The notes: generated by a model not told the origin, from the sequence alone. A stretch of DNA of 47,029 bases from Verrucomicrobiia bacterium (GCA_035765895.1 DASTWL010000095.1:1-47029), one strand, 5' to 3'. Shown: positions 11,638 through 33,836, counted from the stretch's first letter. Numbers and translations: made by a program.

Positions 11638-11655
11638 GTTCGATCTGGTGTCGCT

Positions 11656-12468
11656 TCAGTATTGCAATCGAGGATCGACGTTGGAGCCATGCACCGCGGT
11701 ATGGCAGCCTGCCGTCCAGCAGGTCGCCCGGCTCAAAAATGCCGTGTGATCCACGGCACCAATCATGACCACGCCCGTGCCGCCGGCGACGCCCTGATTC
11801 TGCGCATGACAGCGCAGACAGAGGTTGGCGTCGGCCTGGACCAGCAGCTTGCGATTTACAGAACCGTGGGGATTGTGGCACGTGGTGCAGCCCTCCCGCA
11901 TGGCCTCGTGTTCGAAGACGAAGGGCCGCGTTTGTTCGCGATGGCAGGCGGCGCACGTTTCATTCTCGCGTGCCATGGCAAGCCCGCCGGACGATTTGAA
12001 TATGTCCATCCCGTGCGGGTCATGACACTGCACGCAGTTCATCTGCCCGCTGGCGACCGGATGATGATGCGCCAGGCTGAACTCGCCCCGCGTTTCCAAA
12101 TGGCAGGCAAAGCAGGCCGACGGATCCCGCCCCGGATTGATGATGAACTTGCCCCGCCCGCCGCCCGCCGCGACGTGAAGGCTGCCCGGACCGTGACACG
12201 ATTCGCAGCCGGAAACGCGTCCGCCCGGCGCATCGGCAAAATGCGCGCGGGCGTGCGGACTGGCTGGAAAACGGCGCACATATTGCGCGTGGCAGTCGGC
12301 GCAGGCACGGCTGCCGACATACGTGGCTCCGGGAATGGTCGGCAAAAGTTCCACGGTCGCCGGCACCGAGGAGCAGGAGTTCAACAGCGCCGACAGCACG
12401 AGTGCCACCAACGTCGCCGTCAAAGCGGCCGCCAGACCGGTTGCGCCTGCCATCAAGCAGTTTTTCAT
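11656..12468 (-). CDS. Octaheme c-type cytochrome lipoprotein (MtrA/DmsE-like)
   Basis: Of 270 residues, the first 31 form a lipoprotein signal with lipobox LNSC (Cys32). Seven CxxCH motifs follow (Cys56, 88, 119, 145, 172, 194, 217), with an eighth CX4CH motif at Cys250-Cys255-His256. Paired spacing and extra His residues (SLAHHHP, FEHE, HTAFL, TAVHGS) fit bis-His ligated hemes in a wire like MtrA, PioA or DmsE. These sit inside a beta-barrel and pass electrons between periplasm and exterior. It is first of three co-directional genes. Start 12468 gives the cleanest signal sequence; the frame is open upstream. Direction of electron flow (metal reduction or Fe(II) oxidation) cannot be read from sequence. 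Confidence 0.87.
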   Translation of the reverse strand: MKNCLMAGATGLAAALTATLVALVLSALLNSCSSVPATVELLPTIPGATYVGSRACADCHAQYVRRFPASPHARAHFADAPGGRVSGCESCHGPGSLHVAAGGGRGKFIINPGRDPSACFACHLETRGEFSLAHHHPVASGQMNCVQCHDPHGMDIFKSSGGLAMARENETCAACHREQTRPFVFEHEAMREGCTTCHNPHGSVNRKLLVQADANLCLRCHAQNQGVAGGTGVVMIGAVDHTAFLSRATCWTAGCHTAVHGSNVDPRLQY

Positions 12469-12817
12469 CACGCGACTCGTGTATTTTTTTGTGTGCTGAG
12501 AATGGCCAGCCCGGCCGCCCGGGATTGCTCCCGGATCGCCATGCGCGGGTGCCAGCTTTCTTCGGTCCATGGCCAGACGGGCACCCGGTGTCGGGTGGCC
12601 CGGCGGCCCGGCGGGCGCACGGATGCCACCTGAATTCGCCCGCTTTTTTGCCGGCACGACGGGATCCATCTCGGCTTCACGTTCCTTACGAGGGGCCAGT
12701 GGGAAGTTTGTTCCCGAGAATTCCGCTCGAATTCACGGGCGGCCCCGCGCAGAGTGAGGCACGCAACCATCCGTCCCCGGGAACATTTTGGCGGCTTGTT
12801 GCTCCTACACATGCGAC
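12469..12817. promoter_or_regulatory. Divergent intergenic region between cytochrome and sigma-factor genes
   Basis: I see no gene in these 349 bp. They must hold the divergent promoters. Two adjacent inverted repeats, GGGAA-5-TTCCC (12701-12715) and GAATTC-5-GAATTC (12718-12734), are candidate operators. GGGAAC at 12778-12783 resembles an ECF -35 element 35 bp before the sigma-factor start, but no convincing -10 partner is visible. Confidence 0.4.
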
Positions 12818-17982: not shown

Positions 17983-18109
17983 GGTGGTCGTGTCTATGCG
18001 GTTGGCCACATCAGTTCACAACCACGCTGAAATTTCAAGCCCGGTGCTGGTTTCGCGTTCGCCCGGGCCAAACAACCGCGACGACGATTGGGCCGCACCA
18101 AAAGAAGGG

Positions 18110-18385: not shown

Positions 18386-20842
18386 TCAACGGTCGCTGTC
18401 CGCCCGAATCATCCGCACGCCGAAGACGGCGGCAATTTCGCTTCCGTTCGTGGATTGGAATCGGATCGTAACCTTCGACTTGTCCTTCACCACGTCGGCC
18501 GGGATCGCGTATTTGACGTCGAAGAAACGCGGGGTGCCGTCCTTGGCGACGACCTGCTCGCCAATTTTTTGTCCATCCGCCAGAATGTCGAACGTGCGTT
18601 TGCGCCACTCGTCGCTGTAATAGGTCACCACCACGGCCATCGGATGCGCCGGATCCACCGGCACATCGAAGGAAAACCAGTTGCGTCCGCGCCGCGCCGC
18701 GCGGCCCATGATGCGGTCCGGCTCCGACTCCTCCCCTTGTTGATTAAAGTCGCGCTCGGACTGCATCTCGCCCGGCTGCACAAAGGCCACCGTGGCCAGT
18801 TCCAGCTTGTGTTGCCGCTCGCGTTCCGCCGCAATCTCGGCCGCCCGTTTCTCCCATTCCGGAGGCGTGAACAAATCCCAATACACCGCGTAGGTGCGCT
18901 CGTGCAGCCGGTAGAATGGAATCAAATCCACGTCGCGCTCCCGCCCAACGCCGGCGGTCCGGAAATCGCCGGGCTTGCCCGGGATGGGCTTGATCCAGTC
19001 GGACAGATTCGGGTCGCCCGTGACCAGCACGGGCACCACCGACAGGTCATCCCGCCGCGCGCCGCGCCAGTTTTGCGGCCCCAAATCGCCCGCCAGCACC
19101 AGCGGACCCCACATCAGCGCGACCCGGCGCGGATTGTCCGGCACCGGCTCGGCGTGCAGGTGCTTGGGCAGCTTGAGCGTGACCACATCGCCATCGCGCC
19201 AGCGCCGCGTCAGTTCCACGTAATGATCCGGCGCCGGCAGCGCATCTACATCCTGACCATTGATGGCCACCTTGAACCCGTCGCCTGCCCAGCCTGGCCG
19301 CCGCAACGCCAGCGTGAAGTGTTTCGCCGATTTCAGGTGCAACTTCACCGAGACGCTTTCGCCTTCGGGAAAATCCGTCTGCACTTCCAGCTGCGCCTTC
19401 ATCGCCTGCCAGTCCGCGGTCGAAGGCGTGTAGAAATTGACCCAGAGTTTGTCCCGGCATTCGTAATAGATGCCGTCACCGTGCAACGCGTGACTTTCCA
19501 TGCCGGTGCCGACGCAGCAGGTGAAGCTTTCAAACATGTCCTGATACTCATGCGTCACGCCGCGCCCCACGGGAACCATGTAGCAGGTCTGTCCGTTCGC
19601 CGGGTCAATCGAGGCGAGAATGTGATTGAACAACGCGCGCTCCTCGAAATCCGCGTATTTGACGTCCGGCTCCAGCGCGAACAGGGTCCGCGTCATTTTG
19701 AGCATGTTATAAACGTTGCAGGTTTCGGCGGTGCGGCCATCCACGCGGTCGTTCAGCTTGTCCGGTTCGCCGAAATACTCGTCCTTGCCATGGCCGCCCG
19801 TCGCGAAGCTGTGATGATCAACCACCTGATCCCAGAAGTATTTCGCCGCCGCACCGTTCGTGGCGTTGCCCGTGTAAATGTAATACACCAAATCGCCGAG
19901 CAGCTTCGGCACCTGCGTGTTGCCATGTTTGCCCGCAAGGATGTCCCGGTGCTGCGCGAGCGGATCGACAATCGCGTGGTGCTCAAAATACTGGAATGCC
20001 TTCCGCCAGCGCGGATCGCCGGTGTCCGCGTATAGGTCGGCCATGATCTCGTTCATGCCGCCGAATTCGGTGTTGAGCATCTTTTGAATCTGCGCCTCGC
20101 TGAGCTGCGACAGGATGCCGTCGGCCCACCCGGCGAACTTGACTTCCACATCGAGCGCGGTGCGGTTGCCCGTCAGGCGATACGCGTCGCGCAAACCGGC
20201 GTAGAGCTTGTGCTCCACATACCACGGCGACCACATCCCGTTCAGGTCGAAGCCGCCGGATTGAATCACGCCTTTGGCCAGATCCTCGAAGCGCTGTTTG
20301 CCGTCCACCAGCGTCACCTTGCCGTCCTTCCGAACGTCGGCGAGCAGGCCGCCAATATAGCCGTCTCCCTGGGCGTCTTGAATCTCCTTCAACTCGCGCA
20401 CCATGTAATCGGCGCGCTCTTTGAACCGCGCGTCGCCAGTGGCCGCATACATGTAGCTCACTGCGGACAGATAATGACCCGCGATGTGTCCGGTCAGCTG
20501 CCGGCCGGCACCATCCCAGCCGCCGTAACCCGCTTTCGCCTTGGGCTTCAATCCCGCCCGCTCGCGCAGATGATACAGCATCCGGTCGGGCTCCAGCTCC
20601 AGCAGGTATTTCGCGTCCAGCTCCTGCGCGTGTTTCAGCGGTCCGCCCGTCAAACGCACGGCCGAAAGCGGCAATGGACAGGCGCGGTAAGGAACGGCGT
20701 TGGTGATGACCTGGCTCGGCAGCGGTTTCAGGCCGCAGTTCGCCGGGTCACCCCCGGAGGTTGAACGACAGCCCGACAGAACGAGCAGCGGCGCCGCGGT
20801 CAGCGCGGCAATAAATCCAGCAGCAAAGCATTTTGATGACAT
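18386..20842 (-). CDS. Beta-L-arabinofuranosidase, PF07944 (GH146-like) lipoprotein
   Basis: The 818-aa protein carries a lipoprotein signal (LSGC, Cys25), so it is probably membrane-anchored. The (alpha/alpha)6 barrel contains the zinc/cysteine catalytic site of this clan: Glu373 and Cys375 in AETCNVYNMLK, and Cys442-Cys443 in TCCVGTGMESH. In Bifidobacterium HypBA1 (GH127) the equivalent Glu338, Cys340, Cys417 and Cys418 bind zinc, and Cys417 is the nucleophile. The NVYNML and CCVGTGME wording resembles GH146 more than GH127. Known substrates are beta-L-arabinofuranosides of pectin side chains and plant glycoproteins. Its start is 36 bp from the end of the next PF07944 gene, so the two are probably co-transcribed. 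Confidence 0.9.
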   Translation of the reverse strand: MSSKCFAAGFIAALTAAPLLVLSGCRSTSGGDPANCGLKPLPSQVITNAVPYRACPLPLSAVRLTGGPLKHAQELDAKYLLELEPDRMLYHLRERAGLKPKAKAGYGGWDGAGRQLTGHIAGHYLSAVSYMYAATGDARFKERADYMVRELKEIQDAQGDGYIGGLLADVRKDGKVTLVDGKQRFEDLAKGVIQSGGFDLNGMWSPWYVEHKLYAGLRDAYRLTGNRTALDVEVKFAGWADGILSQLSEAQIQKMLNTEFGGMNEIMADLYADTGDPRWRKAFQYFEHHAIVDPLAQHRDILAGKHGNTQVPKLLGDLVYYIYTGNATNGAAAKYFWDQVVDHHSFATGGHGKDEYFGEPDKLNDRVDGRTAETCNVYNMLKMTRTLFALEPDVKYADFEERALFNHILASIDPANGQTCYMVPVGRGVTHEYQDMFESFTCCVGTGMESHALHGDGIYYECRDKLWVNFYTPSTADWQAMKAQLEVQTDFPEGESVSVKLHLKSAKHFTLALRRPGWAGDGFKVAINGQDVDALPAPDHYVELTRRWRDGDVVTLKLPKHLHAEPVPDNPRRVALMWGPLVLAGDLGPQNWRGARRDDLSVVPVLVTGDPNLSDWIKPIPGKPGDFRTAGVGRERDVDLIPFYRLHERTYAVYWDLFTPPEWEKRAAEIAAERERQHKLELATVAFVQPGEMQSERDFNQQGEESEPDRIMGRAARRGRNWFSFDVPVDPAHPMAVVVTYYSDEWRKRTFDILADGQKIGEQVVAKDGTPRFFDVKYAIPADVVKDKSKVTIRFQSTNGSEIAAVFGVRMIRADSDR

Positions 20843-20878: not shown

Positions 20879-23701
20879 CTACTTGCCGTTCAGCATCCAG
20901 ACCATGGATTCTGGCCCGTTCGCGTTCCGGCGATTGCGCCGCCGCGGTTGCGGCTCGCTGTTCCCCGTGCTGGATGACGCGTCGGAAACGGTGGCTCCCG
21001 GCGCGTAATTCACCTTGGGCTCGTCCGCCGCATCCGTCGCCACCTGGCCGAGGCGGTTCAGCCGTGCGAAGTTCGGAATCGCGGTCATCGGCTTGCCGTT
21101 GGCCCATTTTCCTTCCAGCACCATTACGCCGTCAAGCAGGTTGCCACGCCATTCGACCTTGAGCGGGTCGGCGCTCAACGGCTGGGAAAGGTCCGATTGG
21201 TCGGCGCGTTCGACGCTGTAGATCAGCGGACCGTAACGCAGCGCCACGCGGCCCTCATCCGCATTGACGTGCTGGTCCGCCGTGATGCGCTGCGGCCGCA
21301 GCGGCAGTTCCAGTTCGATGCGGTCGCCGGCCTTCCATTCGCGCGTCACCACCGCATAGCCCTTTTCCATTTTCGGAGTGTAGGATTTTCCGTTCACCGC
21401 AAATGACGTGTAGCCGCTGACCGCCGGGGTTTCGGTGTAGAGTTCGCTCGTGCTGCGATCCGGAATGCGCACATAAACCGAGAATTTGCGCGACTGCTTG
21501 GGGTTCACGGTGATGGCGATCTTGCCGCTCCAGGGATAATCCGTGTCCTGCACCATCTCGACATCCGTGCCGGCGACGCGCTCGACGTTGATGCGGCTGC
21601 CAATGAAGAGATTCACATAGATGCCGTCATCGCTCTTCACATAGGTCCACGTGGGAATCATCAGCAAGGTCCGCGGAATGTTGCCCACGCAACAGGGGCA
21701 GACGTGCCACGGCGTCCGGCGACCATCAACGAGCGGATTGGTGTAGTTGAAATTCTTCCCGTCCAGATCCGTCGCGCCGAGCAGCGCGTTATACATCGTT
21801 TCCTCGTAAAGGTCGGCATACTTCGCGTCGTGATAGGCGAGGTTCAGTTTGTATTGGAAGAAAATCAGGCCGCAGCTTGAGCACGATTCGCAGTAGGCAT
21901 GATTCGGCAGCGAGTAATTCGGGCCAAAGCCTTCCGAGGTTTCGCCGCTGCCGATGCCGCCGGTGACGTAATATTTCTTGTTCACGATGTTGTCCCAAAG
22001 CGACATCACGGCGCTTTCGTAGTCGATGTCACCCGTTTCCGCGGCAATGTCCGCCATGCCGGAGTAGAAATAGGCCGCGCGCACCGCATGACCGACGGCT
22101 TCGTATTGTTTGATGGGCGGCAGATGGCTCTGGTCGTATTCCGAGCCGCCGCGCCGCGAATCGAGCAGGAACCGCGCGAGCTTGATGTAATTGTCGCCGC
22201 GGCCGTGGCCTTCGACGTCATTCACGAACCGGCCGAACCGCACCAGCGCCTGCTCCATTTCCTGATGGCCGTCAAACCACGCCTTCTTGCCCGGACCGAT
22301 GTTGGCCACCCAGCAATCCGCCAGCTTCTTGGCCGCATTGTAGAGGCGCAAGTCCGTGCCGTCGGTGAGCGTGTAATGATTGATGGCCGATTCGATGAAA
22401 TAGCCCGCGACGTAGCCTTCGTGGTCGCCGCGGTGTTCCGGCGACCAGCGTTCCGGCCAGCGCTGGCGGTCGGCCAGCGTGTAGGCCGTCTGCAAATAAC
22501 CGTCCGGTTCCTGCGCCCCGAGGATGATCGGAATCCAATCCTCCAGCGTCCGTTTCATCTTCGCCTGTGCCTTAAGGATGTCCGGATCGCCCTGCGGATC
22601 CACCATCAACGCAATGCACATGGACTCGACGGTTTGATGCACCCAGGCGTTGGCAAAGACGTAACCCTTGTGGTGTCCGTGCGGTTCGCCGCGCAGCGCC
22701 TTGCCCGCCTCGATGAAATTGTCAATGCCGCCCTGCCCTTCCGTGAGGTTCGTTGCGTTGATCTGGTCAATGCAGTGCGGAATCCAGTTCACAATCAGCG
22801 CCTTCGCCCGCGCCTGCCAGAGCGGGCTGTTGATGCTGTAATGCTTGGTGTAAACGACATTGAGCCGCTCCTTGGGTGGCGGCGGTTCGGCGCGCAGCTT
22901 CAACGTCGCACTGCCGCTCAAGTCCCCGTCCAGCGCGGTCAGCTTCAGCACGTAATCGCCCGGCTCCGAAACGGTGGCCGTGGTTTCCAGCGCGCCGGCG
23001 TCCGCAAAGTTCACTGCGCCCGGCCCGGACGTCTTCGACCACGTTGTCTTGATGTTTTCGCCCTTGAGCGATTTGACCGCGCCGGAGAGGTAGGTCTTGC
23101 CGCCGATGATCACGACGCGATCAATGCCCGCGTTCACCGACGGCGGAAAGCCCGGCGAATCGCCCGCGTCATAGACCTTCCACTCGAGAATGCCCGTCGA
23201 GAGCCGCCCGTCTGAAACGATTTCCAGCCGCAGTTTGGTCGTGTGCACCGGATCAAAGGTGGTCGTGTTGAACTGATTTCGCGCCACGCCCAGGCCGGCG
23301 GCGTTCGGCACCGGGACGAACTCGCTGCCGTTCCAATACAACAGCCGGCACGCCTTGGGCGCGCCCACACCCTGCCCGTCAATCCACCAGTAAACCTCCA
23401 TCCGGTTGGCGGAAATCGGCCGGTCCCAGTCGTATTGCACCCAGACCGTGTCAGTGTGAGGCCAGTTGCCGTAGGCTTCGTGTGGCGCGGCGAACGACCG
23501 CCGGGGCGTGTCTCCATCATTGAGCGCATTGAGCGTGGTGTCGCCGGAGCAATAGGAACTCGACGGAGTCGCCACCAGGGCCAGATTGACCGGCTTTCCG
23601 TTCTCCGCGCCCCGCGCCGTCAACGCGAACAGCGACAGACACGACACGAACAGAGCGAACGGCGAACACCGGAACAGCCGGGCAAAACAAAGATGACTCA
23701 T
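20879..23701 (-). CDS. Secreted beta-L-arabinofuranosidase, GH127-like, with lectin-type and Ig-like domains
   Basis: A 940-aa exported enzyme: signal peptide (1-32), discoidin/lectin-like domain (34-180), Ig/PKD-like domain (190-270), then a PF07944 catalytic barrel (280-880). Active-site residues by comparison with HypBA1 are Glu590 (SEGFGP, acid/base), Glu605 and Cys607 (YCESCSSCG), and Cys670-Cys671 (HVCPCCVGNIPR). HypBA1 releases beta-1,2-linked L-arabinofuranose from arabinans attached to hydroxyproline in extensin-type glycoproteins; the same or a pectic substrate is likely. The tail is basic and low-complexity (PQPRRRNRRNANG). ATG 23701 opens the signal peptide. Upstream lies a 297-bp gap with a large inverted repeat. 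Confidence 0.9.
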   Translation of the reverse strand: MSHLCFARLFRCSPFALFVSCLSLFALTARGAENGKPVNLALVATPSSSYCSGDTTLNALNDGDTPRRSFAAPHEAYGNWPHTDTVWVQYDWDRPISANRMEVYWWIDGQGVGAPKACRLLYWNGSEFVPVPNAAGLGVARNQFNTTTFDPVHTTKLRLEIVSDGRLSTGILEWKVYDAGDSPGFPPSVNAGIDRVVIIGGKTYLSGAVKSLKGENIKTTWSKTSGPGAVNFADAGALETTATVSEPGDYVLKLTALDGDLSGSATLKLRAEPPPPKERLNVVYTKHYSINSPLWQARAKALIVNWIPHCIDQINATNLTEGQGGIDNFIEAGKALRGEPHGHHKGYVFANAWVHQTVESMCIALMVDPQGDPDILKAQAKMKRTLEDWIPIILGAQEPDGYLQTAYTLADRQRWPERWSPEHRGDHEGYVAGYFIESAINHYTLTDGTDLRLYNAAKKLADCWVANIGPGKKAWFDGHQEMEQALVRFGRFVNDVEGHGRGDNYIKLARFLLDSRRGGSEYDQSHLPPIKQYEAVGHAVRAAYFYSGMADIAAETGDIDYESAVMSLWDNIVNKKYYVTGGIGSGETSEGFGPNYSLPNHAYCESCSSCGLIFFQYKLNLAYHDAKYADLYEETMYNALLGATDLDGKNFNYTNPLVDGRRTPWHVCPCCVGNIPRTLLMIPTWTYVKSDDGIYVNLFIGSRINVERVAGTDVEMVQDTDYPWSGKIAITVNPKQSRKFSVYVRIPDRSTSELYTETPAVSGYTSFAVNGKSYTPKMEKGYAVVTREWKAGDRIELELPLRPQRITADQHVNADEGRVALRYGPLIYSVERADQSDLSQPLSADPLKVEWRGNLLDGVMVLEGKWANGKPMTAIPNFARLNRLGQVATDAADEPKVNYAPGATVSDASSSTGNSEPQPRRRNRRNANGPESMVWMLNGK

Positions 23702-23805
23702 AAGCGTTGTATGGTGTATGCGGAAACCCGCCAAAAATACAGAAGATTAACCGCCAGCCCATATTCGAAATGCACCCGGGGCTGTCAGCAATCATCACGG
23801 AAAGA

Positions 23806-23998: not shown

Positions 23999-26551
23999 TC
24001 ATTGATACCATTTCGTGGCAATATTCGCCGGGCCTGTCACGCCAGCCGTGCCAGTTCCGGTGATTTTCAAACGGTAATCAAATTTGTTCGTGCGGCTGGA
24101 TTCGCCGTTGTAGAGGAAGTCGGTATTGCAAATGACCGCAATCATGACGTTGTTCTTTATGGCCTTGCCCGCGGGCGGCGTCAGGCTGCAGGCACCGCCG
24201 GACACGGGCTGGCTGTAGATGACCGAATTGTCCGTGGCGCGATAGACAAGCTGGCAGCTCATGTTCGTGCCCAACGGAGTGAAATTCACCGTCACATTGC
24301 CGGTTGCATTCGACGTCGTGAGCGGAATCTGGTTCGCGCCCGACCAGCCGGGGAGCGTGCGCCACTCCGGCGTGAGCGTGCCGGCGTTGTTGGTCGTGAC
24401 CACGTAGCACCGCGCCGTCCACGCCGGACAGTCAATCCAATAAGGCGACCATTCCTGGTCAATCGTCAGGCCCCAATTGTTGTTGAGCAGCGTCTTGTAG
24501 GCATTCGACCATTTGCCGAAATCGCAAAACACCTGGCGGGCGCGGAATTCCTTGATGAGCCGGCGCGTTTGATATTCGCCCAGGCCTTCGGGAGCCCTCG
24601 CGAGCCCTTCGAGCACACGATTCGTGCAGTAACGCCAGATCCACGCCACGCTGCCTTCCGACACGATCTCGCCCATGAAATGCGGGAACGCCTCGCCGTA
24701 TTGATTTCCGCCGAGCAGATTGCGCCACGTGCAAATCTGCACGTTGTTCGAGAACCGGTTGACGCCTTCGGCACACGGACCCCCAAAGCTGTCGTCCTGC
24801 AGCCAGCCGCTGTAGCATTCAACCGGCATGAACGGCGCGATCATCTGCCCCGCGCTCAGGAACCCCATGCTGCTGTAGTTGGAAGTTTTGCGGGCTGCGG
24901 CCTCGCCTTGCAGCCACGTGTTCCCGCCTTCCTGGAACCAGCACGCCTGTTTGCAACCGGGCATGTCGGCGAGCACGGAGTGAATCATCTCGTGCGTGCA
25001 GGCTTCCTGTTGCGCAACCTTGTCGCCGTAAGGACAGGCCGGGTCGAAGGAATAAACCGGGTAATATGAGAGGAGCCCCATCGGCCAGTCTTCGCCGTTG
25101 TAATTGATGTTCCCCTGCCAGCCGCCGAGGTCGTTGCTCTGTCCGCCAACGCACGTGCCCGAGCCGAGCAGATAAATCGCGCTGTGGTAGCCGCGCTTGG
25201 CGCGCTTGTCCGGCGGCCAGCCCATCACGTCGCGGAAGTAGGCGAAATCCGCGTTGAGCTTTTGCAGCATCGGAATCCACGCGTTCGACGTGACGAGCGA
25301 ATTCTTCCCGTCGCCGAACCGGAAGCAGAACCAGTTGTTCGGCAGCGTGATCGTGGTCGTGACGCCGGAGCAGTCATCGAGCACGTTCGTGGGCGGCGGA
25401 ATCGCGGCGAACTCGTTGGTGAAGTTGTAATTCAGATCGGGATTGTATTTGGGCCACACGTAGGGCGCAGCCGGATCTCCCGCCACGACGGTGACGCTCA
25501 AATTCGCCGCATGTGTGCTCAAGCTTCCCTGGCCCCAGACCGTGACTGGATACGTGCCCGGGGAAACCGTCGCGGAGGCAATCAGCGTGAGCAGGCTCGT
25601 CCCGCCCTTGAGCGTCGCGGGATGGAATTCGCAGGCAAGACCGTTCGGCAGATTGCTCGCGCTCAATGAAACCGTCTGCGGATGATTGCCCGAGGCGCCA
25701 ACCGTCACGGTCACCGTGTTGGCGAGCCCTTGCGTCACGACCAGGCTGCTTTGCTCCAGCTGAAGTAGAAAATCATTCCGCGAATGCAGGCGGAAAAATG
25801 CCGCATCGCCGGAAACCGAAACTGTTACAAAATTGGTTCCGCCCAACAGCGTCGGCGCCGGCAGTCCGTCCGTGCTCCACGCCGCTCCCGCCTGGGTTGC
25901 GCGTTCGAGGACGTATTCCGCCGTGGGATCCTGCCAGCTCAGCTCTAGCTGGTTCCCCGGACGCGCCGCCGCGTGAAGCAGTGCCGGCTCCAGCGCAGCG
26001 CCATCGCCGAACACCTTCCATTCCAAGATGCCGGTCGAGGCCGCGCCCGAGGAGGTGAACTTCAAGCGCAGCCGGTCGGTCCGGATGGAATCGAACGTCG
26101 TGACGTTGTATTGGTCGAGCGCCAGGCCAAGGCCGACCGCGTGTGGCACCGGCACATAACTGTTGCCATTCCAATATTCCAGCCAGCTTGCCGACGGAAT
26201 GTGAATGCCGACTTCATCCGTGCTCGTGTTGTCCCGCCACCAATACACCGCAATCTTGTCGGTGTTGATCCCAAGCGGCCAGTCGAGGTCCGACCATTGA
26301 TATTCGACCCAGTTCGTGCCGGTGGTCGGCCAGTTGCCGTAGGCGCCGTGGCTGTGGTCAAAAGAATTGGCCGGCTCAAAGCCGTCCTGGATCGCCAGCA
26401 GATTTTCCCACGGGGAAACGTAGGACGTGGAAGCGGTTGCGCTCAACGCAATGTTGTTCGTGCTGGCGTGGGTGCTGGCCAGCCCGGCAAGGAGCGCCAA
26501 ACCACAGCTCCCCCGGACCAGCGGTTTGAAAATCAGATTCTGGACGGTCAT
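23999..26551 (-). CDS. Secreted metallopeptidase candidate with N-terminal lectin-like domain
   Basis: The 850-aa protein has a signal peptide (1-30) and a discoidin-like domain (31-185) clearly homologous to that of the neighbouring GH127-like enzyme (NG-VPVP-GLGLA...STGILEWKVF). A W...FFRLH module (191-258) and an Ig-like domain (265-357) come next. A C-terminal catalytic part carries His520-Glu521-x-x-His524 (THEMIHSVL), and Glu541 in CWFQEGGNTW is the likely third zinc ligand, a gluzincin arrangement. Many Cys residues suggest disulfides. Substrate is unknown; the neighbourhood suggests plant or other glycoproteins. The family may be one of the poorly described DUF peptidases. The reading frame stays open 321 bp upstream of the chosen ATG, but that stretch has no signal peptide. 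Confidence 0.75.
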   Translation of the reverse strand: MTVQNLIFKPLVRGSCGLALLAGLASTHASTNNIALSATASTSYVSPWENLLAIQDGFEPANSFDHSHGAYGNWPTTGTNWVEYQWSDLDWPLGINTDKIAVYWWRDNTSTDEVGIHIPSASWLEYWNGNSYVPVPHAVGLGLALDQYNVTTFDSIRTDRLRLKFTSSGAASTGILEWKVFGDGAALEPALLHAAARPGNQLELSWQDPTAEYVLERATQAGAAWSTDGLPAPTLLGGTNFVTVSVSGDAAFFRLHSRNDFLLQLEQSSLVVTQGLANTVTVTVGASGNHPQTVSLSASNLPNGLACEFHPATLKGGTSLLTLIASATVSPGTYPVTVWGQGSLSTHAANLSVTVVAGDPAAPYVWPKYNPDLNYNFTNEFAAIPPPTNVLDDCSGVTTTITLPNNWFCFRFGDGKNSLVTSNAWIPMLQKLNADFAYFRDVMGWPPDKRAKRGYHSAIYLLGSGTCVGGQSNDLGGWQGNINYNGEDWPMGLLSYYPVYSFDPACPYGDKVAQQEACTHEMIHSVLADMPGCKQACWFQEGGNTWLQGEAAARKTSNYSSMGFLSAGQMIAPFMPVECYSGWLQDDSFGGPCAEGVNRFSNNVQICTWRNLLGGNQYGEAFPHFMGEIVSEGSVAWIWRYCTNRVLEGLARAPEGLGEYQTRRLIKEFRARQVFCDFGKWSNAYKTLLNNNWGLTIDQEWSPYWIDCPAWTARCYVVTTNNAGTLTPEWRTLPGWSGANQIPLTTSNATGNVTVNFTPLGTNMSCQLVYRATDNSVIYSQPVSGGACSLTPPAGKAIKNNVMIAVICNTDFLYNGESSRTNKFDYRLKITGTGTAGVTGPANIATKWYQ

Positions 26552-26900
26552 GCCATCGAATGGTGTCGGCGTTTTTCCCGGAAAAATGCAGCTGTTATCG
26601 GGCTGTTCAATCGGCTGATGAAAACAGACTTCGTTCCCGCCCCACTTCCACGGGCAACGGCACCCCCCCCTGTCCGCCTGCAGGCCGGCTGCGTTGTCAC
26701 CGGCGCCGTCGGACAAGCTCTGCACACACTCACCGTTGAATCGCCAGCCGACGGCGGCGGGCACAACGGTTTCATCGCAGTGTTTTTCGGGGTGGGCAGT
26801 ATTCACGCAGTGTGCGGCTGCCGCGCCAATTCCCCAATAGGATGACTCCACGCCCGCATACTCAATTTGCACCCGGCGGCCGGCCTGGGCCGCGGCTGAT
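26552..26900. other. Gap between peptide transporter and metallopeptidase genes
   Basis: No gene is assigned here. The minus-strand frame of the metallopeptidase is open up to 26872 (107 codons, Cys/Trp-rich, no export signal). I read this as chance openness in G+C-rich DNA or an untranslated leader. An eight-base C run lies at about 26664-26672. No intrinsic terminator or riboswitch could be made out. Confidence 0.4.
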
Positions 26901-28412
26901 TTATTTGACGCCGCTCATCAGCCGCTTGATGGGACGCGAGAAGACGATCAGCAAAACGCCGGCGGTCGCCGGCAGAATGACGATGTTCAAATACAATGTC
27001 GGCCAACGTTGGAGGGCGTCCGCCTTGAACTCGCCGGCGAGCAGCCCCGCCAGCAAATTGCCCAGCGACGTGGCGAGGAACCAGATGCCCATCATCTGCC
27101 CGGCCAGTTTTCGCGGTGCCAGCTTCGTCACGGAACTCAAGCCCACCGGGCTCAGGCACAATTCGCCGAAGGTGTGCAAGAGATACGTCGTGATCAGCCA
27201 GGTCGGCCATGCTTGATGACCGGAGGCGACGACTTTGGCGGCACCGGCCATCACGAGGAACCCCGCCGCCAGCAGCACGAGGCCCAGGCCGAATTTCACC
27301 GGGATGGAGGGATCCAGATTCCGCCGCGCCAGCCAGACCCACAGCCACGCGAACACCGGCGCGAATGTGATGATGAAGACCGGCCCCAGTGCCTGAAACC
27401 ACGCTGCGGGCACTTCGTAATTCAGCCAGCCAATCGTGCGCACCGTGCAGCGTTCGGCAAACAGGTTGAATGACGAGCCTGCCTGTTCAAACCCGGCCCA
27501 AAACAGGGCCGACGCGAGAAAAAGAACCAAAATCATCGCCACGCGTTCCTTTTCAATCTTGTCCAGGCCGCAGCCCAGAAACGCGAAGCCAAAGAAAGCG
27601 ACGGCAATGACGAGAATGACGTAGGCCATGCCCTGCGCCAGCGCCACGGGATTTAACGGAAGCCAGCCGCACAAGCCGAGCAGCAACACAATCAGGGCGG
27701 CCAGCAGACCGCCGAACAAAATGAACTGTTCGGAAACGTGCAGCGGATTCTCGTTGCCCCGGCGCCTTCCCGCCTCGCCCAGCAGGTGCCGCGAGAAGTG
27801 AAATTGAATAAGCCCCAGCACCATCCCCACCCCGGCCGCGGCGAAGCCCCAGTGCCATCCCCGTTCCTTGGCGAGCCAGCCGCAAATCATCGGACCAATG
27901 GCCGCGCCCAAATTGACGCCCATATAGAAAATGGTGAAGCCGGCGTCCCGGCGCGCGCCGCCTTCGGGATACAAATCCCCCACCAGACCGCTCATGTTTG
28001 GTTTCAGCGTGCCGCTGCCGACCACGACAAAAATCAATCCGAGGTAGAACGTCTGCGTCCAGGGCAGCGCCAGCGTGAAGTGCCCTAGCGCAATGATGAT
28101 GCCACCATACCAGACCGCCCGTTGTGCGCCCCACAGGCGGTCCGCCAGCCAGCCGCCCGGGAGCGACATCAGATACACCGCTGCCGTGTAGAGCCCGTAG
28201 ATGGCCGTCGCGGTCTTGTCGTCCAGGCCCATGCCGCCCCGCACGGCATCCACCATGAACAGCACCAGCAATGCCCGCATGCCATAGTAACTGAACCGTT
28301 CCCACATTTCCGTGAAGAACAGCGTGTATAGCCCGCGGGGATGTTTTTGGCCCGGCGCAAAGGATGTCGCGCGCGGCAAACCGGGGTCGGCCATCAGTTC
28401 GGTTTCAATCAT
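26901..28412 (-). CDS. POT/PTR2 family proton-coupled oligopeptide transporter
   Basis: A 503-aa major-facilitator protein of the POT family. The diagnostic ExxERFxYYG motif occurs as EMWERFSYYGMRALL in helix 1. The family loops GGWLADRLWGAQRAVWYGG, GTLKPNMSGLVGDLYP and FTIFYMGVNLGAAIGP follow, and LLHTFGELCLSPVGLSSVTK lies near the C-terminus. These carriers import di- and tripeptides with protons. Its place between two peptidase genes fits uptake of their products. ATG 28412 is chosen; ATG 28394 is also possible. Confidence 0.92.
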   Translation of the reverse strand: MIETELMADPGLPRATSFAPGQKHPRGLYTLFFTEMWERFSYYGMRALLVLFMVDAVRGGMGLDDKTATAIYGLYTAAVYLMSLPGGWLADRLWGAQRAVWYGGIIIALGHFTLALPWTQTFYLGLIFVVVGSGTLKPNMSGLVGDLYPEGGARRDAGFTIFYMGVNLGAAIGPMICGWLAKERGWHWGFAAAGVGMVLGLIQFHFSRHLLGEAGRRRGNENPLHVSEQFILFGGLLAALIVLLLGLCGWLPLNPVALAQGMAYVILVIAVAFFGFAFLGCGLDKIEKERVAMILVLFLASALFWAGFEQAGSSFNLFAERCTVRTIGWLNYEVPAAWFQALGPVFIITFAPVFAWLWVWLARRNLDPSIPVKFGLGLVLLAAGFLVMAGAAKVVASGHQAWPTWLITTYLLHTFGELCLSPVGLSSVTKLAPRKLAGQMMGIWFLATSLGNLLAGLLAGEFKADALQRWPTLYLNIVILPATAGVLLIVFSRPIKRLMSGVK

Positions 28413-28521
28413 GCGTTCTGAGTTGGGCGGGAGTTTTGCCGCCACGGCGTCGCCGCAGACTTTCCCCAAAGGCCTCGCGTCACAAGGTCTTTTTCAGGCG
28501 GCCATCGTCAGACGCCGCGAA

Positions 28522-31083
28522 TCATGATTTCTTCAAAAAGGCCCGGACAAAAAAGTCCACCAGCCGTCGCGATCCGTAGGGCGTGCCCGCCACGCCGTGG
28601 CCGGTGTTGGGCATGTAGAGCAAATCAAAATCCTTGTCCGCCTTGATCAGTGCGTTGACGACCTGCATCGTGCTGGCAGGATCCACGTTGTTGTCCATTT
28701 CGCCCACCATGAGCAGCAGCTTGCCCTGCAATTTATGGGCATCGGTCACGTTCGAGTTGCGCGCGTAGCTTTCATCCACCGGCCAGCCCATCCATTGTTC
28801 GTTCCACCAAATCTTGTCCATCCGGTTGTCGTGGCAGCCGGAATCAGCCACGCACGCCTGGTAGAAATCACCGTGATCCAGCATCCCGCGCAACGCGCTC
28901 TGGCCGCCCGCCGACGTGCCGTAAATCCCGACGCGGCTCAGGTCCATGCAGGGATGTTGCGCCGCGGCGGCCTTGATCCAAAGGATGCGGTCGGGAAAGC
29001 CCGCGTCCGCCAGGTTTTTCCAGCAGACGTCATGGAACTTCTTGGACCGGTTCGAGGTGCCCATGCCGTCAGCCTGCACGACGATGAACCCGCGCTCGGT
29101 CAGCCGGTGATTGCGGTAGTTTAACCGGAATTCCTTCGGCACAAATGAATCCTGTGGTCCGGCGTAAATGTCCTCCAGGACCGGATACTTTTTGGCGGAA
29201 TCGAAATCCGCCGGCCAGAAAATCACGCCGTAAATGTCCGTCACGCCGTCGCGGCCCTTGGCCACGAAGCGTTCCGGCGTGCGCCAGCCGCCGGCCCGCA
29301 GTTCGCTGTCATCCGCCGTCTCCAGGTGGCAGACGAGCTTGCCGTCATCGGTCCGCCGCAGGTCATTCACCGGTGGCAGATCCACCCGCGACCAGGTGTC
29401 TATCAGGAACCGCTGGTCGGGAGAAAAGGCGACCGAATGCGTGCCGTCGCCCTCGGTCAACACGACAAGCCCCGTGCCGTCAAAATTGATGCGGCAATAT
29501 TGCAGGTAATACGGATCCTGCCCCGCGATCAAACCGCCGGCCTCAAACCAAATCTGGCGCTTCGCCTCGTCCACGCGGTCCACCTTCCGCACCACCCAGT
29601 CGCCCTTGGTGATCTGATTTTTTACGCGGCCCGCCTTTGCGTCATAGAGATACAGGTGATTCCAGCCATCGCGTTCGGACATCCAGATGATCTCGTGCGT
29701 GTCATCGAGGTAGTCGGCGTAATACTTCGCCGAGTAGCAGATGAACGTCGCGCTGTGCTCGTCAACAATGGGACGCACGGCCCCGGTCTTGGCGTCAACG
29801 CCCAGGATGCGCAGCACCTGATGCCCGCGCTGGTTGAAGAGGAAGGTGAACTCGCTTGAATCCGACGCCCAACGCACGTCGCTGATGGACCAGGGATTCG
29901 CGAAAAGCGCGTCATCCACAGGAATTTCCTTCTTCGCTTCCACATCGAACAGGTGCGGCTTCGCATAGGGCACGTCATCGCCGGGCTTGAGGTAGGGATA
30001 CGAAACCAGCCGGGGCTGAAGCTGGTCCTTGGGCGAGGATTGCACCATGTAGATGCGGTGCTGCGTGCCGGGTTTGAAGCGCATGGCGACAAAGTGGCGG
30101 GAGTCGGGCGACCAATGAATCTCCGGCGTCGGCTGCTCCGGCTCGCGGGTGTCGTATTCCATGTCGATGGCCCGGTCCGCCTCGATGTTGCGCGCGTAAC
30201 TGTCGTCCGGATTTGCGTCATAGGTCAGTTGCTGCTCCTGGCCGCTCGCCGTGTCGCGCAGAAACAAATTATGTCCCTGCACGGACACCTCCCACTTTTG
30301 ATCAGGCGAACGGACCCCCTCGGGCCGGCGCTCGGCCCGGCCGTCGCGACGGTTCGGCCGCGGGCGTTCCGGCGCCGCCCCACCAATCTCCGCCACGCCC
30401 GGTTCCTCGGCCGCATCGAACACCGCGATGATGTCGTCATTGGCCGCCGTCACGAGCCAGACATGGCCCACGTAGGTGTGCTGGTCGCGGGTGTCGCCAG
30501 GTTGCAAACGGCCGTAAGGCTGGCGATTGCCGTCGGTGTCGAGCCAGAACAGGTTCACGGCATCCGGCAGCCGGTTGACGAAGCGGATGGACGTTTCCGT
30601 GGTGCTCGCCCGGGAAGGATGCGGCCGGCGGCTGAACGGCAGACGATTCGCGCCGTCGCCGTCGCCGGTGGCCGGGGTTACCGCGTAACTTTCAAGGTCC
30701 AGTTCCCAGGACTCGGCGCCGCGCAACGTGACCTTTTTCGCATCGGGCGAAAACCGCAGCGCCTCGAACGGCAGTTGGGCAGCCTCGAACGGTTTGCCCG
30801 TGGCCTTGCTCAGAGCCGCGGCCAGCCGCGCGTGGTCGAAGGCTGCCGTGCGCGTGCCCGCCGCCGCATCCACCAGCACGAATTCCTTCCGGCCCCCGGC
30901 GAGGTCCACCCGATACCAGAACCGGTTCGTTGCGCCCGCGGCATCCGCGAACCAGTGCGGGATGACTTTGTCGCGGTAAACATGCGGCGCGCCATTGGTC
31001 GGCGCACCGTTCGTCGCGGGCGCAGCCGCCGCCCAACACACCACCCCCACCACCAGCCAGCCAAGGTTAAGCACAGATTTCAT
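28522..31083 (-). CDS. Secreted S9 family prolyl peptidase with an inserted VHL-like beta domain
   Basis: The 853-aa protein has a signal peptide (about 1-20), a DPP-IV-type beta-propeller, and a C-terminal alpha/beta-hydrolase with Ser724 (GTSAGG), Asp797 (GEMDNNV) and His829 (NTGHGV). S9 enzymes cut at or near proline. The double-Glu motif of classical DPP-IV is not evident, so dipeptidyl specificity is uncertain. Residues about 161-232 form an inserted domain that aligns without gaps to the human VHL beta domain over 41 residues; the hydroxyproline-pocket residues Trp88, Tyr98, His115 and Trp117 appear as Trp180, Tyr190, His207 and Trp209, with Thr203 for Ser111. A basic, Arg/Pro-rich linker (238-258) follows. 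The POT transporter gene lies downstream, co-directional. Confidence 0.9.
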   Translation of the reverse strand: MKSVLNLGWLVVGVVCWAAAAPATNGAPTNGAPHVYRDKVIPHWFADAAGATNRFWYRVDLAGGRKEFVLVDAAAGTRTAAFDHARLAAALSKATGKPFEAAQLPFEALRFSPDAKKVTLRGAESWELDLESYAVTPATGDGDGANRLPFSRRPHPSRASTTETSIRFVNRLPDAVNLFWLDTDGNRQPYGRLQPGDTRDQHTYVGHVWLVTAANDDIIAVFDAAEEPGVAEIGGAAPERPRPNRRDGRAERRPEGVRSPDQKWEVSVQGHNLFLRDTASGQEQQLTYDANPDDSYARNIEADRAIDMEYDTREPEQPTPEIHWSPDSRHFVAMRFKPGTQHRIYMVQSSPKDQLQPRLVSYPYLKPGDDVPYAKPHLFDVEAKKEIPVDDALFANPWSISDVRWASDSSEFTFLFNQRGHQVLRILGVDAKTGAVRPIVDEHSATFICYSAKYYADYLDDTHEIIWMSERDGWNHLYLYDAKAGRVKNQITKGDWVVRKVDRVDEAKRQIWFEAGGLIAGQDPYYLQYCRINFDGTGLVVLTEGDGTHSVAFSPDQRFLIDTWSRVDLPPVNDLRRTDDGKLVCHLETADDSELRAGGWRTPERFVAKGRDGVTDIYGVIFWPADFDSAKKYPVLEDIYAGPQDSFVPKEFRLNYRNHRLTERGFIVVQADGMGTSNRSKKFHDVCWKNLADAGFPDRILWIKAAAAQHPCMDLSRVGIYGTSAGGQSALRGMLDHGDFYQACVADSGCHDNRMDKIWWNEQWMGWPVDESYARNSNVTDAHKLQGKLLLMVGEMDNNVDPASTMQVVNALIKADKDFDLLYMPNTGHGVAGTPYGSRRLVDFFVRAFLKKS
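30388..30603 (-). other. VHL-type beta-domain coding segment within the S9 peptidase
   Basis: Encodes residues 161-232. Readable landmarks in order are VNRLPDAVNLFWLDTDG, RQPYGRLQPGD and HTYVGHVWL, matching human VHL NRSP...VWLNFDG, QPYPTLPPG and HSYRGHLWL. By my recollection of the human sequence, 21 of 41 positions (human 78-118) are identical. Confidence 0.82.
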
Positions 31084-31313: not shown

Positions 31314-32201
31314 TCACGTCTTGCTGAACTTCTTGCGGCGATATTCGGAGGGCCGCCAGCCAATCCACTTCGTGAAGGCGTTCGAGAACACGAACGGATT
31401 CTGGTAGCCCACTTCCTGGGAAACGGACTCGATGGTCTGATCCGTGGACGCCAGCAGCTCGGCCGCGCGCCGCATGCGCAGGTAGGTGACCTGGTGCATC
31501 GGGCTGCGGCCCAGCTGGCGCCGGCACAGCCGCCGGAGATGCTCGTTGCTGTAACCGGCCTCGCGCGCCAGCCGCGTCAACGACCACGAATCCGCCAGGC
31601 TCGCGGCCACGCGTTCCCACAACAGGCGCAGCTGATCGGGCTGGTCGGACGGTTGCGCAAACCGCAGCACATACGCGTGGATCAAGTCGGTCCACTCCTG
31701 AATCAACGTGGGTTGCGCGGGACCGTTGCATTCATACATCAGTCCCAGGATGGCCGAGCGCAGCGGCAACGGATCATAACGGGCCAGGACCGGCGTGGTG
31801 GCGTCTGCGATGGGACGTTGCGCGGTCGGACGTTGATAGCACACCCAGCAAAATTCCCAGCGCGCTTTGGGCACGGCCTCGAAGGCGTTCAATGTATGCG
31901 CCGGCAGCAAACAGGCGTAGCCTTCACGGCACACGCGCCAATGTCCGTCAATCAGCACCCGCCCTTTGCCGCCGATGCACGCCAGAAAGTAGGTCGTGGT
32001 CTGCTTTGTGCGGATGATCCGGGTGGGCCCCTGCGTCTCCTCAATGCCCAGATGAACCATCCGGTATTGATTCAGGGCCTGGCAGACGGGAAAGCCTTCG
32101 ATCCAGGGGCGCGATTCAATGTTGGCCGCCTGCACGCCGCGCATGCGGGTGTGCGGGCTGTGAACCGTGACATCGACCAGCTCGGTTTGGGCATGAATCA
32201 C
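31314..32201 (-). CDS. AraC family transcriptional regulator
   Basis: The 295-aa protein has an N-terminal cupin-like effector domain (RTKQTTTYFLACIGGKGRVL, GYACLLPAHTLNAFE). Its C-terminal pair of helix-turn-helix motifs reads SLTRLAREAGYSNEHLRRLC and IESVSQEVGYQNPFVFSNAF, ending GWRPSEYRRKKF. Such regulators often sense sugars. It heads the minus-strand glycan/peptide block and is divergent from the Xaa-Pro aminopeptidase gene, so either side could be its target. The start codon used is GTG; ATG 32144 is an alternative. Confidence 0.88.
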   Translation of the reverse strand: MIHAQTELVDVTVHSPHTRMRGVQAANIESRPWIEGFPVCQALNQYRMVHLGIEETQGPTRIIRTKQTTTYFLACIGGKGRVLIDGHWRVCREGYACLLPAHTLNAFEAVPKARWEFCWVCYQRPTAQRPIADATTPVLARYDPLPLRSAILGLMYECNGPAQPTLIQEWTDLIHAYVLRFAQPSDQPDQLRLLWERVAASLADSWSLTRLAREAGYSNEHLRRLCRRQLGRSPMHQVTYLRMRRAAELLASTDQTIESVSQEVGYQNPFVFSNAFTKWIGWRPSEYRRKKFSKT

Positions 32202-32468
32202 GCCGCTGAAATTAAAGAAGCCGCGACTGTTCTGGCGATAAGAATGTGCCGCCCGCTTGGCCGCGGCACCTCCCGCCGCACAGCCACATCACGCCGGTGG
32301 TGATATGTGATAGGTGGGGGTGCATTCCATTCATGGGCGGAACCACGAATCGCCATTAGCCTTTAATCATGTTTGTGTGTCGGCATCGCCCGTGGTTCAA
32401 CGGCAACCCACCTCCTCCGCGGCACGGTCCCGCCAAGGTTTAAATCATCCGGGACGCGAATCATTTTC

Positions 32469-33836
32469 ATGCGTTACGATCCGATCACGCCGCAATTGTT
32501 CGTGGAAAACCGCCAGCGCCTCGCGGCCCTGCTGCCGCCCAACGCGCTGGCCATCGTCAATGCCAATGACATTTGCCCCACCAATGCGGACGGCACCCAG
32601 AACACCATCGTCAATTCGGACCTGTTCTACCTGACCGGGGTCGAGCAGGAGCAGACCATCCTGCTGCTCTACCCCGAGGCCGACGATGAACGGCATCGCG
32701 AACTGCTGTTCCTGCGCGAGCCGACGCCGGAAAGCGAAACATGGGAGGGCCACAAACTGAGCAAGGACGAGGCCCGCAAGCTTACCGGGCTGGAGAACAT
32801 CCACTGGCTGTCGGAATTCCCGCGCCTGCTGCACCGGCTGATGTGCGAATGCGACCACGTCTTCCTGAACAGCAACGAGCACAAGCGCGCCGTCATCGAG
32901 GTGGAAAGCCGGGACGCGCGGTTTGTGGCGGAGCTGAAGCGCCGGTATCCGCTCCACAACTTCCGCCGGCTCGCGCCATTGCTGCACCGGCTGCGCGCCG
33001 TGAAGTCCGAAACGGAAATTGCCCTGATCCGCCGGGCGTGCGCGTTGAGTGATCAAGGCTTCCGCCGCGTGCTGGCCTTCACCCAGCCCGGTGTTTTTGA
33101 GTATCAGGTCGAGGCCGAGTTTGCCCACGAGTTTACCAGCCAGGGCGGCCGCATGGCGTATCAACCCATCATCGGCAGCGGGCTCAACGCGTGCTGCCTG
33201 CATTATCTGGCCAACGACCAGGTGTGCCGCGACGGCGACCTGCTGCTGCTCGATGTCGGCGCGAGCTACGCCAACTACAATTCCGATCTCACGCGCACCA
33301 TCCCGGTCAACGGCCGGTTCACCCCGCGCCAAAAGGCGGTTTACAATGCCGTGCTCCGCGTCCTGCGTCAGTGCATCGCCGGCCTTGTGCCCGGCCGGAA
33401 ACTCAAGGACTGGCAGCAGGAGGCCGAACAGCTGACCGAACGCGAACTCGTCCACCTCAGCCTGCTGACCCCGGCGCAAATCAAGCGGCAAAAGCCGGAC
33501 GCGCCGGCCTTCAAAAAATATCTCATGCACGGCGTCGGGCACCCGATTGGCCTCGACGTCCACGACGTGGGCCACACCACCAAGCCCATCGAAGCCGGCT
33601 GGGTGATGACCGTCGAACCCGGCATTTACATCCGCGAGGAAGGCTTTGCGGTGCGGCTGGAGAACGACGTGCTCGTCACCCGGGACGGGCCCGTGGACCT
33701 CATGGCCCACATCCCCATCGAGGCGGATGAGGTCGAGGCCCTCATGAATGCCGGGAAAGCCTCCCGCAGCGGCGGCAATGGCCGGCCCCATGCGTCCCCG
33801 CGAGCCAAACGCCCGCTTGCCCTGGCGCCGGGATGA
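32469..33836 (+). CDS. pepP: Xaa-Pro aminopeptidase (M24B)
   Basis: A 455-aa cytoplasmic dinuclear-metal aminopeptidase that removes N-terminal residues ahead of proline. The N-terminal aminopeptidase-P domain (YDPITPQLFVENRQRLAALL, NSDLFYLTGVEQEQTILLLY) is followed by the pita-bread domain. The metal ligands are all seen: Asp in LLLLDVGA, Asp in NSDLTRTIPV, His in MHGVGHPIGLDVHD, Glu in TVEPGIYI and Glu in VRLENDVLV. ATG 32469 gives the conserved start. It is divergent from the AraC gene. It could complete breakdown of proline- or hydroxyproline-containing peptides brought in by the POT carrier. Confidence 0.93.
   Translation: MRYDPITPQLFVENRQRLAALLPPNALAIVNANDICPTNADGTQNTIVNSDLFYLTGVEQEQTILLLYPEADDERHRELLFLREPTPESETWEGHKLSKDEARKLTGLENIHWLSEFPRLLHRLMCECDHVFLNSNEHKRAVIEVESRDARFVAELKRRYPLHNFRRLAPLLHRLRAVKSETEIALIRRACALSDQGFRRVLAFTQPGVFEYQVEAEFAHEFTSQGGRMAYQPIIGSGLNACCLHYLANDQVCRDGDLLLLDVGASYANYNSDLTRTIPVNGRFTPRQKAVYNAVLRVLRQCIAGLVPGRKLKDWQQEAEQLTERELVHLSLLTPAQIKRQKPDAPAFKKYLMHGVGHPIGLDVHDVGHTTKPIEAGWVMTVEPGIYIREEGFAVRLENDVLVTRDGPVDLMAHIPIEADEVEALMNAGKASRSGGNGRPHASPRAKRPLALAPG

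Follow-up and report, generated by a model that had tools for sequence, protein, structure and literature searches.

The window, a stretch of 47,029 nucleotides from a Verrucomicrobiia bacterium (GCA_035765895.1, DASTWL010000095.1:1-47029), carries on its minus strand a gene for a putative peptidase, here called VHL-S9, which is laid out as a signal-like N terminus, a beta-propeller with a VHL insertion and an S9 hydrolase domain (Table 1). Residue numbers assume that the protein starts at the ATG at 31083, and the signal-like N terminus results from that start. Given the same start, an earlier note on this DNA was right in placing nucleotides 30388-30603, on the minus strand, at residues 161-232 of an S9 peptidase. 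VHL-S9 is a serine peptidase of the S9 clan and, with its signal-like N terminus, probably of a secreted type. A full-length model built from two sequences had a mean pLDDT of 43.5. A placement of the VHL insertion at the substrate-contacting loop of PmDAP IV, between blades 1 and 2, was considered and dropped, since the sequence seems to place the insertion one repeat later.

Table 1. Features of the VHL-S9 gene and its neighbours in the window
Feature	Position	Strand	Basis
VHL-S9 peptidase, 853 aa	28522..31083	-	Pfam: VHL 157-217, DPPIV_N 258-571, Peptidase_S9 659-849
VHL beta domain, residues 155-236	30376..30621 (Pfam core 30433-30615)	-	Profile match, predicted fold
Pocket stretch with W180, Y190, T203, H207, W209	30457..30546	-	Alignment to human VHL
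DPP IV-type beta-propeller, C-terminal to the VHL insertion, without a kept double-Glu motif	29371..30312	-	
S9 catalytic domain, S724/D797/H829	28537..29109	-	Pfam; triad invariant in all covered sequences
POT/PTR2 oligopeptide:H+ symporter, 52 bp downstream of the peptidase gene	26901..28469	-	PF00854, E=1.3e-70; TIGR00924 above cut-off
957-aa protein, same gene array	23999..26872	-	No Pfam match of note
GH127 beta-L-arabinofuranosidase	20879..23734	-	PF07944, E=5.7e-67
Second GH127 beta-L-arabinofuranosidase	18386..20842	-	PF07944, E=2e-109
GH115 (alpha-glucuronidase family), final gene of the same-strand array	15424..18009	-	PF15979, E=3.9e-120
AraC-family regulator, upstream of the peptidase gene	31314..32201	-	PF12833
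M24 aminopeptidase P (Xaa-Pro aminopeptidase), divergent	32466..33836	+	PF00557, PF05195

With the bacterial DPP IV enzymes of family S9 (2ecf, 5olj, 5yp1), VHL-S9 has in common the combination of propeller and hydrolase, the Ser-Asp-His triad and the oxyanion tyrosine (Y640), which like the triad is kept in all covered sequences. It differs from them in the inserted VHL domain, in the lack of a kept double-Glu motif and in altered S1 positions, which we take to be Y631, Y662 and Y666 in human DPP IV numbering and which are changed to A, W and W, respectively, in the window enzyme. The double-Glu segment is missing in about 80 of the 94 aligned rows and is present but motif-less in the window protein. 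This motif anchors the substrate N terminus in DPP IV (PMC5807507), and its loss rules out a canonical DPP IV. The proposal of a proline-specific protease is left unsupported by the altered or absent segment and the changed S1 positions; proline specificity is unproven because VHL-S9 is without the motif, and the enzyme may well be an endopeptidase.

Several neighbours recur near VHL-S9 genes elsewhere. Homologues of the POT gene are found there in L146, L151, L162, L163, L166, L175 and L184, and homologues of the M24 gene, whose nearest NCBIfam model is a Xaa-Pro aminopeptidase with a score below the model cut-off, in L144, L149, L150, L154 and L184. In L190, which belongs to another family, VHL-S9 clusters on one strand with an M24-like gene and with an orthologue (948 bits) of the GH127 gene nearest to the peptidase, and a homologue of the second GH127 gene adjoins a hydroxyproline operon in L153. 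HypBA1, the enzyme on which family GH127 was founded, acts on arabinans freed from the hydroxyproline of extensin; arabinan, rhamnogalacturonan II and arabinogalactan proteins contain beta-L-arabinofuranose as well (PMC10850190). Because GH127 genes adjoin VHL-S9, extensin-type or arabinogalactan targets are favoured over collagen, so that two of the targets named in the earlier note, extensins and arabinogalactan proteins, gain from the neighbourhood while collagen is less favoured. The window also holds, at 9196-12669, genes for a multihaem cytochrome (doubled CXXCH) and for a Planctomycete-type cytochrome.

The VHL domain, its pocket and its carriers

Against PF01847 the protein scores 48.3 bits at residues 157-217 (cut-off 21, E=1e-12), and the isolated domain scores 51 bits. 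In a phmmer search of the PDB, residues 160-214 match human VHL 68-122 without gaps (E about 3e-9), and the 21 of 41 identities previously noted over human VHL 78-118 proved exact on recount; the maximum over the same human residues in 2000 shuffles of the VHL-S9 protein was 12. The Pfam and PDB E values and the shuffles rule out chance similarity to VHL. The gapless alignment claimed earlier holds for residues 160-214, but not in the form given, in which residues 161-232 (72 aa) were paired with 41 human residues.

The predicted structure agrees with the profile match. An AlphaFold model of residues 148-246, made from a two-sequence alignment, has seven strands and a mean pLDDT of 84, and superposes on pVHL with a Z score of 13.3 and 1.6 A over 82 residues. 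Both Foldseek and VIA-align return pVHL as the top match for the domain model, and the structure matches near the top include 4awj, with capped hydroxyproline, and 1lm8, a complex with HIF peptide. The model depends in part on sequence likeness, because AlphaFold was trained on VHL. The alpha domain with its elongin-C box is absent from the protein: a Pro/Arg-rich linker leads from the VHL domain to the propeller, and there is no second VHL-family match. Taken together, alignment and model support the assignment of the domain as a homologue of VHL with the VHL fold.

That VHL recognises hydroxyproline is established for oxygen sensing in animals, and VHL-based degrader drugs make use of this recognition. 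In human VHL the pocket for hydroxylated HIF-2alpha is formed by W88, Y98, I109, S111, Y112, H115 and W117; S111 and H115 hydrogen-bond the hydroxyl and Y98 hydrogen-bonds the carbonyl (PMC6105673). The five residues of the window protein that had been singled out as the pocket do align with W88, Y98, S111, H115 and W117, with Thr at the place of Ser111, as is the case in most bacterial VHL domains. Conservation was scored on 104 distinct VHL domains extracted from bacterial genomes, 75 of them in S9-type proteins and 29 in other proteins. The five residues (W, Y, T or S, H, W) are complete in 72 of the 75 S9-fused domains, whose mean identity is 48%, and in 49 of 52 once those more than 70% alike are removed. 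By conservation they rank 2nd, 3rd, 5th, 6th and 7th among 69 positions; the chance of five random positions all lying in the top seven is 2e-6, a value that ignores the tendency of Trp and Tyr to be conserved. Of the residues that contact HIF, R69 and I109 are lost in the S9-fused domains, I109 being mostly Gln, and Y112 is Phe or Tyr.

H115 is kept in 74 of the 75 S9-fused domains and is replaced in 13 of the 29 modules of other proteins, in which Y98 is also variable. Because these replacements occur while W117 stays in 28 of the 29, H115 is not required by the fold. W117 is the sole pocket residue placed in the core of human VHL in the 'aromatic tetrahedron' paper, which models human Y98H as keeping the fold with lower stability (PMC3688787). 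Conservation of the pocket for folding alone is unlikely, since H115 and Y98 vary in the other modules and only W117 belongs to the core. As read from the alignments, the hydroxyproline pocket is intact and selectively conserved in VHL-S9.

A VHL domain occurs in 156 of the 320 genomes of the window's order, in 21 of 388 genomes of a phylum-wide sample and in none of 14 control genomes. The window genome has one. A scan of genome contigs with this single domain as query found one relative, L100, whose VHL-S9 is an orthologue 59% identical to the window protein. L100 is a MAG titled Chthonomonadales (Armatimonadota), so that either transfer or mis-binning may account for the gene. Outside the S9 proteins the VHL domain is found on, among others, sulfatases, SASA-type esterases, LRR proteins, proteins resembling metallopeptidases and a tandem array that also matches MACPF; it thus behaves as a mobile accessory module. 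A near orthologue in L056 cleanly lacks it, being without the residues of about 140-225, and L163 has a tandem pair in which one member carries VHL and the other does not; since the module is either present or cleanly absent, it is not needed for the enzyme fold.

The other carriers deserve brief description. Sulfatases with a C-terminal VHL domain are found in L117, L119, L050, L156 and L157, and H115 is Ala in most of them (RPGAVW). SASA-type acetylesterases and leucine-rich-repeat proteins carry the domain in L115 (10712-12508 and 2375-3253), L118, L104 and L108, several without H115. A 1359-aa open frame at L049:3-4079 contains VHL-like repeats, five in number, and matches MACPF towards its end. 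VHL or VHL-like domains accompany weak metallopeptidase matches (M90, ATLF) in L107, L118, L156:4311-6509 and L092, which are possible metallopeptidase counterparts of the VHL-S9 enzymes. Two plasmid VHL domains, annotated as hypothetical, come from a Nostoc of the hornwort Phaeoceros (NZ_CP040290.1, 9333-9563) and from Calothrix (AP018275.1, 27423-27632).

Linkage to 4-hydroxyproline catabolic genes

The window genome has a full 4-hydroxyproline operon on contig 33 (G000:C33), separate from the contig of the window, with genes for an AraC regulator, a proline-racemase-family enzyme, an FAD D-amino-acid dehydrogenase, a DHDPS-type enzyme and an aldehyde dehydrogenase. Both catalytic Cys residues are present in the proline-racemase-family enzyme, a probable epimerase, whose best NCBIfam model is the 4-hydroxyproline epimerase NF052296, with a score just below the cut-off (421.7 bits against 450). 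The breakdown of trans-4-hydroxy-L-proline uses the same four enzyme families (PMC4113996). A profile search of the window genome found no PF13640 hydroxylase, and for this reason the hydroxyproline is probably foreign.

The places of epimerase genes and of VHL genes of S9 size were compared in the 320 genomes of the order with a distance limit of 10 kb. Among the matches listed, the epimerase lies within this distance of an S9-size VHL gene in 12 of the 79 genomes with both, 0.35 being expected; the binomial tail is 2e-15 under random placement, uncorrected for kinship. Seven of the 12 linked genomes belong to one genus-level group and the rest come from four further families. In about 85% of the genomes listed as having both genes there is no close linkage, and most VHL-S9 genes, like that of the window, stand apart from the catabolic genes; short contigs are frequent. 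Co-occurrence of the epimerase with S9-size VHL genes (79/112 vs 98/208, Fisher p=6e-5, among the matches listed and uncorrected for kinship) weakly suggests a tie; the L100 genome has an epimerase match below threshold only.

Gene order in the relatives takes several forms. Epimerase, VHL-S9 and dehydrogenase follow one another on one strand in L144, L147, L148 and L149, and in L145 and L146 VHL-S9 is oriented divergently from an operon of epimerase, dehydrogenase and DHDPS genes. The order in L150 is aminopeptidase P, VHL-S9, DHDPS, trypsin-like, epimerase and dehydrogenase, and the dehydrogenase adjoins VHL-S9 in L061, L067, L068, L069 and L070. Beyond the order, three other families of the class are also linked: L182 has a row of epimerase, DHDPS-like, aldehyde dehydrogenase and VHL-S9 genes, L183 has the order epimerase, DHDPS, VHL-S9, and L184 has DHDPS-like, M24 aminopeptidase P, epimerase, VHL-S9, POT and dehydrogenase. 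Every VHL domain of the epimerase- or dehydrogenase-linked S9 genes has the full pocket. VHL-bearing sulfatases adjoin the epimerase in L156 and L157, with no S9 gene nearby and with H115 replaced. DPP IV-type S9 genes free of VHL lie inside hydroxyproline operons at L152:6536-8644, L158:2-2221 and L159:10273-12585, and it follows that S9 enzymes as such recur in these operons. L150:35-1093 encodes a pentapeptide-repeat protein with a TIR domain, upstream of a hydroxyproline operon.

Candidate function and competing readings

Because the pocket is intact and the gene in many relatives lies in or beside hydroxyproline catabolic genes, the VHL domain probably directs the peptidase towards proteins rich in hydroxyproline, for example plant or algal wall proteins. 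We favour, with reasonable confidence, a reading in which hydroxyproline guides VHL-S9 as the peptidase of a system that utilises hydroxyproline-rich glycoproteins; the binding, the guidance, the substrate and the order of the steps are what we infer. The GH127 enzymes would strip L-arabinose from hydroxyproline-rich proteins and so expose the hydroxyl; the VHL pocket would bind 4-hydroxyproline with a free hydroxyl and present the protein to the active site; the S9 domain would cut close to the held hydroxyproline, with aminopeptidase P also cleaving the chain; the POT transporter would take up small peptides; and the epimerase, FAD dehydrogenase, DHDPS-like deaminase and aldehyde dehydrogenase would convert hydroxyproline to alpha-ketoglutarate. 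The gene array of the window would then be a utilisation locus for such glycoproteins. Of the earlier proposal, the homology to VHL, the fold and the pocket are supported, and the predicted recognition of hydroxyproline gains strong independent support from gene neighbourhoods; a proline-specific protease is not supported.

Extensin hydroxyproline is mostly glycosylated, and glycosylation should block the VHL pocket. This counts against guidance by hydroxyproline, as do the position of the operon on another contig, the many genomes without close linkage, the concentration of linked cases in one genus-level group, the absence of the domain in L056, the Thr in place of S111, the loss of R69 and I109, and the activity of GH127 enzymes on other plant glycans. 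The state of native extensin also speaks for a module that binds some other ligand, for instance a glycan, a proline-rich peptide or hydroxyproline that carries arabinose, much as a carbohydrate-binding module does. The extensin peptidase Svx uses an extra domain to recognise the side chains of arabinan (PMC13164431), the presence of VHL on sulfatases, SASA-type acetylesterases, LRR proteins and metallopeptidase-like proteins is a spread typical of substrate-anchoring modules, and many of the non-S9 modules are without H115. We nevertheless think another ligand unlikely for the S9-fused class, in which the hydroxyl-bonding residues S/T111 and H115 are nearly invariant and the linked genes are those of hydroxyproline catabolism proper.

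It is also conceivable that the insertion is structural or regulatory (a lid or a dimer contact), that its pocket is kept for folding and that the linkage concerns the S9 enzyme rather than VHL. The VHL-free S9 genes in hydroxyproline operons, the near orthologue without the domain and the core position of W117 (PMC3688787) are all in keeping with this, but the variation of H115 and Y98 in other modules, the retained if less stable fold of modelled Y98H (PMC3688787), the epimerase-adjoining VHL of the unrelated sulfatases in L156 and L157, and the clean absence of the module from some enzymes, whose fold therefore does not need it, make it rather improbable. Bacterial protein hydroxylation, on which there is a review (PMC4295552), would allow the target to be a hydroxylated protein of the bacterium itself, a counterpart of HIF/VHL signalling; with no PF13640 oxygenase in the genome, a signal-like N terminus on VHL-S9, and a peptide importer and glycosidases as its neighbours, we consider this very improbable indeed. 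If hydroxyproline guidance is correct, the VHL-S9 family is a prokaryotic hydroxyproline reader with the pocket of human VHL, the attack of some environmental bacteria on hydroxyproline-rich wall proteins of plants and algae is explained, and the evolutionary source of the VHL domain becomes testable. VHL-S9 domains would also offer small readers for detecting hydroxyproline. A tentative idea, which we rate as possible though doubtful, is that the VHL beta domain was at root a bacterial hydroxyproline reader of secreted enzymes digesting hydroxyproline-rich proteins, to which animals added an elongin-binding helix for oxygen sensing.

Relation to known systems

Bacterial VHL domains are already known from Pfam and from Litorilituus sediminis (PMC9002001). 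What is new is the VHL-S9 gene in or beside the 4-hydroxyproline operon, in several cases between epimerase and dehydrogenase; in the open-access literature we found neither a VHL-bearing peptidase nor a bacterial VHL tied to hydroxyproline use described. The Litorilituus protein EMK97_00595 likewise has a Pfam/InterPro VHL domain and is predicted to be secreted, but its framing is tumour-suppressor-like, and the paper has no peptidase, pocket survey or hydroxyproline pathway (PMC9002001). With the beta domain of human pVHL, VHL-S9 has in common the fold, the identities over residues 78-118 counted above and the five core pocket positions, Ser111 being Thr here. It differs from pVHL in having no alpha domain, elongin box or ubiquitin link, in sitting in a secreted-type peptidase and in not keeping the HIF-contact residues outside the pocket.

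The described 4-hydroxyproline operons (4HypE, DAAO-type oxidase, DHDPS-type deaminase, ALDH; PMC4113996) comprise the same four enzyme families that the window genome has and that accompany VHL-S9 in relatives. We found no VHL-S9 peptidase described as a member of them, and peptidase neighbours are mentioned once, for another cluster (PMC4113996). The bifidobacterial breakdown of hydroxyproline-linked arabinan (HypBA1 GH127, GH121; PMC10850190, PMC7263609) has GH127 in common with the window, where it stands beside a peptidase; the bifidobacterial systems take the sugars, whereas the VHL-S9 system would also use the protein backbone and the hydroxyproline. Svx of Pectobacterium is, like the enzyme proposed here, a secreted peptidase guided by an accessory domain. 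However, Svx is a metallopeptidase and its extra domain reads arabinan (PMC13164431), whereas the reader in VHL-S9 would be one for hydroxyproline.
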